From NCBI GenBank assembly GCA_007693745.1, contig REDA01000039.1, positions 1 through 64,000 on the forward strand: a DNA stretch of 64,000 bases. The letters are read 5' to 3'. The notes beneath the pieces are model-generated. The model searched no databases and was not told where the DNA came from. It saw nothing but the letters and a program-made list of their open reading frames with translations. The stretch's first letter is position 1. Each line of letters begins with the position of its first letter. Origin of the DNA: Balneolaceae bacterium. GTDB lineage: Bacteria > Bacteroidota > Rhodothermia > Balneolales > Balneolaceae. A program made the translations under genes and the position numbers. Shown here one piece after another: positions 1 to 36,228 of this stretch.

Positions 1-52
1 AGGACGCCGCCCTTTCACGGCGGTAGCACGGGTTCAAATCCCGTACGCGGTA
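1..52 (+). tRNA. tRNA-Glu (anticodon TTC), 5' end outside window
   Basis: The 3' part of a tRNA. The anticodon stem CCGCC (7-11) pairs with GGCGG (19-23) around the loop CTTTCAC, which puts TTC at 14-16. The T-arm is ACGGG (28-32), loop TTCAAAT, CCCGT (40-44). The 3' acceptor strand ACGCGGT (45-51) is followed by discriminator A52. No CCA is encoded. The acceptor 5' strand and most of the D-arm lie before base 1. The last 22 bases (31-52) are copied twice more just downstream. Confidence 0.93.
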
Positions 53-302
53 CGAATAAAGTGAGTCATTTTCATATAGAGTCCGATCCTCTTTTTCAAC
101 TCCAGGTTGTAACCATATATCACAGCCGTTGGTCTTGCGAAGCAGTGCTTCGCGGTTCAAATCCCGTACGCGGTACGAATAAAGTGAGTCATTTTCATAT
201 AGAGTCCGATCCTCTTTTTCAACTCCAGGTTGTAACCATATATCACAGCCGTTGGTCTTGCGAAGCAGTGCTTCGCGGTTCAAATCCCGTACGCGGTACG
301 AA
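31..302 (+). repeat. 123-bp tandem repeat, 2.2 copies, built on the tRNA-Glu 3' end
   Basis: The units run 31-153 and 154-276, with a partial third copy from 277 to about 302. Each unit opens with GGTTCAAATCCCGTACGCGG and the TA that completes the tRNA 3' end, then about 100 bp of unrelated sequence. Each full unit ends in a perfect hairpin, GCGAAGC-AGT-GCTTCGC (137-153 and 260-276), directly abutting the next tRNA-like segment. The copies look identical by eye. No 5' half of a tRNA is present in the units, so they are not complete tRNA genes. The period is a multiple of three, so an open frame with 41-residue repeats runs through it, but nothing suggests it is translated. Confidence 0.93.
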
Positions 303-35097: not shown

Positions 35098-36228
35098 TTA
35101 ATCTATTTTGCCCAACAGATCTTTATAATATCCTAAAAGTGTCCCGTTTATAGCATCCCAGCTATATTTTTGAGACATCTCAAGAGATTTTTCAGACATT
35201 CGGACTCTGAGTGTGTTATCTGTAATCAGATCTTCAGTCAATTTATAGAAAATATCACTTCTTTCAACAGGAATCACATAGCCATTCTCTCCATGCCTTA
35301 CCAGTGACCGGCTTCCTGAAGCATCTGCTACGATGCAAGGCAATCCGCTTGCCATAGCCTCAAGAGTCACATTGCCAAATGTTTCTGTATCCGAGGGAAA
35401 AAAGAACAGATCACTTGATGCATAGACACGGGCAAGATCTGTTCCGGTTATGAAACCGGTAAACGTTCCCCCGCGCACTGATTTCCTGACTCCGGACAAA
35501 GCCGGGCCATCTCCCGCTATCAGTGGCTTGACCTGAGGATATTTATCCCGGAGTTCATTTACCACATTTGAAAACAGTTTCAGATTTTTTTCCCAAACCA
35601 GACGGGATACAAACGTGATTACGACATCTGAATCGCCGAACCCAACTGATGTTCTCCATTCAGTATCTCTTCGCCGCGGGTTAAAGAGCTCGTGATCAAT
35701 TCCTCTTGCCCATATTTTCAGATCTGTGTCGATTCCCTGGTTTTCCAGCACAGAAATCATCGATTCGGAGGGAACATATACCTGCTCACAGTGGCGATAG
35801 AACCATCTCAGATATTTCCACAAAACAGGTTCCAGAACACCAAGGCGGTAATACTTCAGATAGCTTGAGAAATGTGTATGATAAGAAGAGACGATCGGTT
35901 TTTCATTCTTCAGCGCCCATCGCAACGCTTTAAGCCCAAGCAGATCCGGAGTGGCAATATGTACGATATCAGGATCAAACTGACTGAGTTTCTCTATGCA
36001 ATCGGGTGGAAATGAGCGTGAAAACCTGTATTCAGATCGCCCGGGAAGAGGAAGCGACGGTACTGCAATCAGAGTACCTTTGTGTTTTATGGCAGGAGCG
36101 GCTACCGTAGGCCCAAATACCAGTACATTTACCCCCTTGCTCTCCAGATAATCCACCAGCCGGTTCAGCGTTAGTGAAACACCGTCTCTTATATGATTAT
36201 AATTACCTGTAAAAATTGCTATTTTCAC
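35098..36228 (-). CDS. family 4 glycosyltransferase, lipid-glycosyltransferase-like
   Basis: A 376-residue GT-B enzyme. The N-terminus has IFTGNYNHIRDGVSLTLNRL and PIVSSYHTHFSSYLKYY, a pattern shared with lipid glycosyltransferases such as SqdX and the mannosyltransferase MgtA. The donor site has FVSRLVWEKNLKLF and SDTETFGNVTLEAMASGLP. The start codon is GTG. It is the first gene of the sphingolipid-associated operon, with the divergent SDR gene 80 bases away. Transfer of a sugar to ceramide or a glycerolipid is the likely role, but is inferred. Confidence 0.88.
   Translation of the reverse strand: MKIAIFTGNYNHIRDGVSLTLNRLVDYLESKGVNVLVFGPTVAAPAIKHKGTLIAVPSLPLPGRSEYRFSRSFPPDCIEKLSQFDPDIVHIATPDLLGLKALRWALKNEKPIVSSYHTHFSSYLKYYRLGVLEPVLWKYLRWFYRHCEQVYVPSESMISVLENQGIDTDLKIWARGIDHELFNPRRRDTEWRTSVGFGDSDVVITFVSRLVWEKNLKLFSNVVNELRDKYPQVKPLIAGDGPALSGVRKSVRGGTFTGFITGTDLARVYASSDLFFFPSDTETFGNVTLEAMASGLPCIVADASGSRSLVRHGENGYVIPVERSDIFYKLTEDLITDNTLRVRMSEKSLEMSQKYSWDAINGTLLGYYKDLLGKID

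Follow-up and report, generated by a model that had tools for sequence, protein, structure and literature searches.

A tandem array of tRNA-Glu 3′ ends that looks like one member of a small tRNA-linked element family in Balneolaceae

The 3′ ends of tRNA genes are known landing sites for large islands. Short tandem units behind a tRNA gene occur at the tyrT locus of Escherichia coli, where the copy number differs between strains: repeats of 178 bp are present in 3.1 copies in MG1655 and in 2.1 copies in O157. A further point of comparison is phage T6, whose SegB protein is a GIY-YIG homing endonuclease that cuts inside tRNA genes (Chihara et al. 2026, PMC13096335). The SegB cleavage motif RAWTSGAAC is given for 23 of 83 sites, segB genes are enriched beside tRNAs, and the tandem amplification of a tRNA segment needs both the SegB nuclease activity and phage recombination genes (PMC13096335). 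Here, we describe a tandem array at a tRNA-Glu gene that looks like the footprint of a small selfish element, one of a tRNA-linked family of Balneolaceae whose apparent target is the universal T-loop of tRNAs and tmRNA.

The window, i.e., the whole 64-kb stretch of DNA that we analysed, holds a single tandem array at positions 31-302, with a period of 123 bp, 2.2 copies, and 100% matches (Tandem Repeats Finder). A preliminary description, made from the sequence alone, had reported a 123-bp unit that starts at the GGTTC of the T-arm, and this reading holds: units 31-153 and 154-276 are identical, a third copy agrees for 26 nt from 277, and the T-arm sequence GGTTCAAATCC occurs at 31, 154, and 277 with no further occurrence in the 64-kb window. 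The left unit border truly lies at GGTTC, because base 30 (G) differs from base 153 (C). The same description had each later copy carrying a tRNA 3′ end without a 5′ half (154-176 and 277-302) and standing behind a perfect 7-bp hairpin (137-153 and 260-276), both of which we confirmed. The array is composed of the following parts:

1-53, + strand: 3′ two thirds of tRNA-Glu(TTC), comprising anticodon arm, T-arm, acceptor 3′ strand, discriminator A52, and C53 (Rfam RF00005 match at 1-52, calls in relatives, start of contig C83)
31-153, + strand: unit 1, 123 bp, made up of the T-arm from GGTTC plus the acceptor 3′ strand (31-53), a spacer (54-136), and a hairpin (137-153) (repeat analysis)
137-153, no strand: hairpin closing unit 1, GCGAAGC-AGT-GCTTCGC (family-wide core, pairing changes on both sides)
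154-276, + strand: unit 2, same as unit 1, with 154-176 a displaced tRNA-Glu 3′ end lacking the 5′ half
260-276, no strand: hairpin closing unit 2 (pattern match)
277-302, + strand: partial third copy of 26 nt, a displaced tRNA-Glu 3′ end that is followed by unrelated sequence (identity stops at 302)

Bases 1-52 match a tRNA that misses its 5′ end (37.7 bits, Rfam RF00005). Base 1 is the end of contig C83, which is why the tRNA-Glu is cut off and why ARAGORN made no call at the window start; the identity as tRNA-Glu(TTC) comes from the 3′ half, which is the same as in the called tRNA-Glu(ttc) of relatives. Judging from the same arrangement at empty and filled tRNA-Arg alleles, the unrelated sequence after 302 is probably the old native flank. 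When compared with Rfam, the array returned the tRNA plus two low-scoring chance matches and no match to the rtT family, and the folded 123-bp unit was not clearly more stable than its shuffles (z = -0.8). A 155-aa open frame (61-528, + strand) spans the array; it is favoured because the array period is a multiple of three, and we do not consider it a gene.

Two facts go beyond the preliminary description, namely that a contig edge truncates the tRNA and that the array is one of many. Another contig of the window genome (G000), C7, ends at 35482, within the T-arm of a tRNA-Pro(TGG). In relatives, the tRNAs for Pro, Arg, Cys, Glu, His, and Glu form one cluster, which we did not find assembled in the window genome; probably, the assembly broke twice inside it, at the end of C7 and at window base 1, owing to such repeats. 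This gives a likely reason for assemblies breaking within tRNA T-arms in the Balneolaceae clade. As the contig edge cuts the tRNA, the true copy number at 1-302 may differ from the one in the assembly. That the array itself is an assembly artefact, as the preliminary description had allowed for along with an array that leaves no trace in relatives, is hardly credible: its place at the very start of C83 and the termination of C7 inside a tRNA-Pro T-arm would fit such a reading, but three more arrays lie inside contigs of the window genome, and units are carried by 2.1-Mb contigs of relatives and by isolate genomes, so that only the copy number at 1-302 is affected.

A search of the full genome and of relatives, as the preliminary description had proposed, placed the array in a larger set. 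The pattern GCGAAGC-NNN-GCTTCGC occurs 11 times in the window genome, versus 0 times for a reversed control, and all 11 hairpins fall in four arrays, at tRNA-Glu, tRNA-Pro(GGG), tRNA-Met(CAT), and tRNA-Arg(TCG), with periods of 123, 99, 133, and 101 bp, respectively. A covariance model of the hairpin plus its upstream core recovered the identical 11 sites in this genome and none extra. Each array copies the 3′ end of its own tRNA, and what the arrays have in common is the hairpin and some preceding bases. Arrays are common in relatives as well, with a patchy presence that varies between them: most genomes of the genus have the hairpin, as do three further genera of Balneolaceae, versus 0 of 23 genomes that belong to the order but not to the family. 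Among 84,980 species scanned, 43 stretches held the hairpin, most of them from Balneolaceae and mainly from metagenome-assembled genomes, with the isolates Rhodohalobacter sulfatireducens and Fodinibius halophilus also carrying the unit; the few matches outside the family look like chance. No hairpin was found in 2.9 million viral contigs, and our literature search returned nothing relevant on such arrays in Balneolaceae.

Across the family, hairpin units stand behind tRNA genes for Leu, Ala, Pro, Arg (three anticodons), Glu, Met, Asn, and Val and also behind tmRNA, and they carry the 3′ end of whichever of these genes they follow. The distance from the tRNA end to the hairpin is mostly 75-91 nt, and the unit length, near 120 nt, is nearly constant. 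The hairpin arms co-vary across the family (in a count that is biased, as the sites were gathered with a pairing filter), compensated forms that can be read directly being CCGAAGC/GCTTCGG, GCGGAGC/GCTCCGC, and GTGAAGC/GCTTCAC. Several relatives carry another hairpin form, whose stem of 8 bp is GCGAAAGC/GCTTTCGC. Units at different tRNAs of the same genome are more similar than units of different genomes, a difference reached in 5 of 2000 permutations, which suggests that units move between tRNA genes, with two genomes carrying most of the signal.

Some loci depart from this layout. In G021 (18 sites, L075-L090) and G001 (L056-L058), the hairpin and core stand at non-tRNA intergenic sites, where the hairpin comes after a ~120-bp repeat and is followed by GGTTACAGGTTGAACG-like or GGTGCAAGGGACACGG-like sequence. 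In R. sulfatireducens (L151) and F. halophilus (L160), a tRNA-Met fragment that adjoins GTGGGTACATTAGTGGGTACA precedes a hairpin unit; the fragment begins in the anticodon region. This resembles the end of a larger element that integrated in front of the array.

How units come to stand behind a tRNA can be read from alleles of the interval between tRNA-Arg(TCT) and tRNA-Cys, which consists only of AGAAAAT in G004 (empty), holds one unit in G002, and holds two in G007, with AGAAAAT standing after the last copy in both filled genomes. These alleles show a site-specific insertion that leaves the upstream tRNA whole and displaces the old 3′ end with its native flank downstream: since AGAAAAT follows the last copy in G002 and G007, it is the tRNA that keeps a 3′ end and the displaced end that keeps the old flank. 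The empty state of G004 could also be obtained by deletion between repeats, but insertion is favoured because, in species that lack arrays, the sequence right after the tRNA begins in a similar way (AGAAG, AGAGG).

Of 107 hairpin sites, ~60 have a direct repeat of 14-70 nt whose first base lies exactly at the hairpin/GGTTC junction. In many single-unit loci, the direct repeat measures 23 bp, extending from the T-loop to one base past the 3′ end of the tRNA. In G023, the repeat takes in ~20 nt of native flank that is also present in the empty G018 and G008. In ~20 of 73 displaced tRNA 3′ ends, a palindrome is inserted directly behind GGTTC. Palindromic inserts at this place measure ~15-30 nt and are often of the type CCCCAAAGGGATCCCTTCGGGA; examples are loci L025, L036, L060, L096, L215, L219, L225, L235, L239, L275, L276, L286, L298, L309, and L326. 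At L137 (PWFZ01000127.1, 3870-4320), a hairpin-type tandem unit occurs at a non-tRNA site, a terminator-like stem-loop behind a protein gene, where GGTTC lies within the loop region and each unit consists of two core copies, one of them with a broken hairpin; this layout suggests that the target is a GGTTC placed within a stem-loop.

A first lead to a possible enzyme came from a tRNA-Met locus with a small GIY-YIG ORF between the tRNA and the displaced tRNA 3′ end. A GIY-YIG motif scan near hairpin units found such an ORF at tRNA-Met loci only, and a genus-wide search found these ORFs beside tRNAs. Small GIY-YIG ORFs lie ≤250 bp behind a same-strand tRNA at 11 of 25 loci in the genus and at 7 of 27 in an order-wide sample, versus ~0.2% expected, in counts for which the loci were chosen blind to tRNAs as the best score per genome, related genomes not being independent. 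None of four control loci with UvrC-size proteins was behind a tRNA. The bacterial ORFs usually begin 58-66 bp behind the tRNA and, at 82-93 aa, comprise little beyond the catalytic domain; for the one ORF that was tested, no phage homologue was matched. GIY-YIG units, which are larger than hairpin units but laid out in a similar way, also stand in tandem, and they close with a displaced tRNA copy whose anticodon loop or T-loop carries a palindrome. They frequently start upstream of the T-loop, in the D-loop or anticodon loop, rather than at GGTTC. Mixed arrays of hairpin and GIY-YIG units occur at tRNA-Met in G019 and in G016. Our literature search gave nothing relevant on GIY-YIG arrays at bacterial tRNAs.

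The window genome itself has one such locus. On contig C98, a tRNA-Asp is followed by two identical ORF-less units and then by an intact 89-aa GIY-YIG ORF (PF01541, E = 4e-12, above the curated cut-off). Each ORF-less unit holds a tRNA-Asp copy in which the hairpin TCCCGATTACTCGGGA replaces the anticodon arm, and each retains the first codons of the GIY-YIG ORF; these units look like deletion forms of the ORF-bearing ones, in the same genome as the window array. In this array (L301, 476-1334), a pseudo-tRNA-Asp stands in front and the ORF-less units are 174 bp each; a tyrosine recombinase gene follows it (C98:38539-39087), with a C-terminus that appears IntI-like by eye. At L240 (G020:C30) and L245 (G027:C32), small GIY-YIG ORFs appear inside tyrosine recombinase genes, near the codons for LLGH, and not behind a tRNA.

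We favour a reading in which T-loop cleavage by a GIY-YIG nuclease, followed by repair, drives the arrays, with the 123-bp array as an ORF-less relative, and we assign it a probability of about 0.5. The reverse complement of the SegB motif, GTTCSAWTY, is the tRNA T-loop, i.e., the place where hairpin units begin and where ~20 of 73 displaced ends carry their palindrome. Under this reading, a GIY-YIG enzyme would cut tRNA genes in the T-loop as phage SegB does, repair of the break would then install and amplify units, and the terminal hairpin or palindromic insert may mark or protect the cut site; the 123-bp array would be a non-autonomous relative of the GIY-YIG units. The descent of hairpin units from ORF-bearing ones is drawn from the layout and the mixed arrays, since no recognisable ORF remnant is kept in hairpin units. 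Several points count against the reading: there is no GIY-YIG ORF at the four hairpin arrays of the window genome, whose sole small GIY-YIG ORF is on another contig; the ORFs are tiny, with no phage match for the one tested; the tRNA-Glu T-loop GTTCAAATC agrees with the SegB motif at 8 of 9 positions, and just 23 of 83 SegB sites have that motif; the start of ORF-bearing units frequently precedes the T-loop; and some hairpins occur at non-tRNA loci (G021, G001). More tentatively, and at somewhat below even odds, chromosomal selfish elements may home to the T-loop by a minimal GIY-YIG nuclease, restore the tRNA, amplify in tandem, and breed hairpin-bounded, ~120-bp non-autonomous satellites of tRNA tails, the window array among them; the tyrT repeats of E. 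coli would then be left over from the same process. The arrays reveal a lineage-wide process at a ~120-bp scale that uses a motif common to all tRNAs and keeps an essential gene intact; if GIY-YIG cleavage is the true driver, it would link phage segmental amplification, bacterial selfish genes, and the tyrT repeats through a single mechanism.

Other explanations were weighed against the same data. The preliminary description had seen possible traces of site-specific recombination at a tRNA 3′ end, a claim that the tRNA-Arg(TCT) alleles and the repeat starts at the hairpin/GGTTC junction support, while the tyrosine integrase that it implied is not supported: just four PF00589 matches exist in the window genome (proteins of 325 and 392 aa, which may be ordinary Xer recombinases, a 64-aa fragment, and one beside the tRNA-Asp array), and none is near the four hairpin arrays, next to which an integrase was to be looked for. 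It is unlikely that the ~120-bp units are mini-elements of the attL/attR type, consisting of little beyond an attachment site and moved in trans by a tyrosine recombinase that crosses over in the T-loop. Such elements would explain the near-constant unit length, the displaced 3′ end with native flank, and a direct repeat that, like tRNA-borne attachment sites, covers the T-loop and all that follows up to one base past the tRNA; however, a single enzyme would need to act on many tRNAs and on tmRNA, a unit landing in a different tRNA would ruin it with the 3′ end that it brings, some duplications extend into native flank (G023), and the hairpin is absent from the viral contigs. An origin with no dedicated enzyme, where replication slips or switches template between two hairpins, namely the T-arm and the GCGAAGC palindrome, and so duplicates the unit, with homologous recombination then changing the array length, has in its favour the stem-loop at both unit ends as well as the identical units and copy-number differences expected of RecA-type expansion. 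We consider it improbable, as single-unit loci end in a tRNA 3′ end and then native flank, which a simple T-arm-to-hairpin duplication would not yield, unrelated tRNAs are followed by the same hairpin with its upstream core, and within a genome, units at different tRNAs are somewhat more alike than units of different genomes (the permutation result above). Simple tandem duplication alone, the other option in the preliminary description, is contradicted by the same single-unit loci.

Retention of the array for its transcript, a small RNA of tRNA-like 3′ ends like RttR of E. coli tyrT, appears very improbable. The tyrT repeats are annotated as RttR/RtT small RNA and the hairpin changes are paired (in sites collected with the biasing pairing filter), but units at tmRNA and at some tRNAs lie behind a terminator, the unit fold does not stand out from shuffles, presence is patchy and differs between relatives, and Rfam matches the tRNA only. 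Further candidates were tried and rejected. A known RNA family is not at hand in Rfam besides tRNA, and a phage attachment site finds no counterpart among the viral contigs. The target of IS91 is GTTC, which was the reason for considering a rolling-circle transposon of this type; its Y2 transposase is absent from the window genome and from 25 of 28 genomes. Integron attC sites, which IntI recombines, appear to be a poor match: their core is GTTRRRY, from which the junction GGTTC[AG]A differs, and an integrase gene with a C-terminus that looks IntI-like by eye was found near the tRNA-Asp array only.

The array can be compared with four known systems. As at E. coli tyrT, where tandem units sit right behind tRNA-Tyr, the units lie right behind tRNA-Glu. 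In the tyrT units, a hairpin-rich insert separates a T-loop-like GGTTCGA from the last 19 bases of tRNA-Tyr, AATCCTTCCCCCACCACCA, which is also the layout of the interrupted T-loops in Balneolaceae; a palindrome marks the T-loop junction in both, standing before GGTTC in the window array and behind it in tyrT and in those relatives' displaced ends that carry an insert. Unlike the Balneolaceae arrays, which occur at many tRNAs and have no rtT match in Rfam, tyrT is one locus, has no GIY-YIG ORF listed adjacent to it, and differs in insert sequence and period. As for SegB of phage T6, the points of resemblance are GIY-YIG genes linked to tRNA genes, the T-loop, at which cleavage is known from SegB, and tandem copies of a segment that holds tRNA sequence; SegB, however, is a free-standing homing endonuclease of a phage, the amplified segment holds a full-length tRNA and a truncated segB, and hairpin-bounded 120-bp units are not described in the part of the report cited here (PMC13096335). 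A GIY-YIG ORF inside the amplified unit is found at tRNA-Asp of the window genome and in the mixed arrays of relatives, not at the window array. Islands of tyrosine integrases likewise have a displaced tRNA 3′ end, a direct repeat on both sides, and a restored whole tRNA, whereas the Balneolaceae units are ~100-130 bp long, tandem, without an integrase gene, and spread over many tRNAs with one hairpin type. REP/RAYT elements, which we also rejected, resemble them in having short palindromes in intergenic arrays; in contrast, the window genome (G000), like G010, has no Y1 transposase, array-poor relatives have many, and the palindromes of the window genome are confined to tRNA arrays. Hence, the layout of tRNA-tail repeats was already known from E. 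coli tyrT, and what is new here is their spread over many tRNAs and the link to GIY-YIG ORFs.
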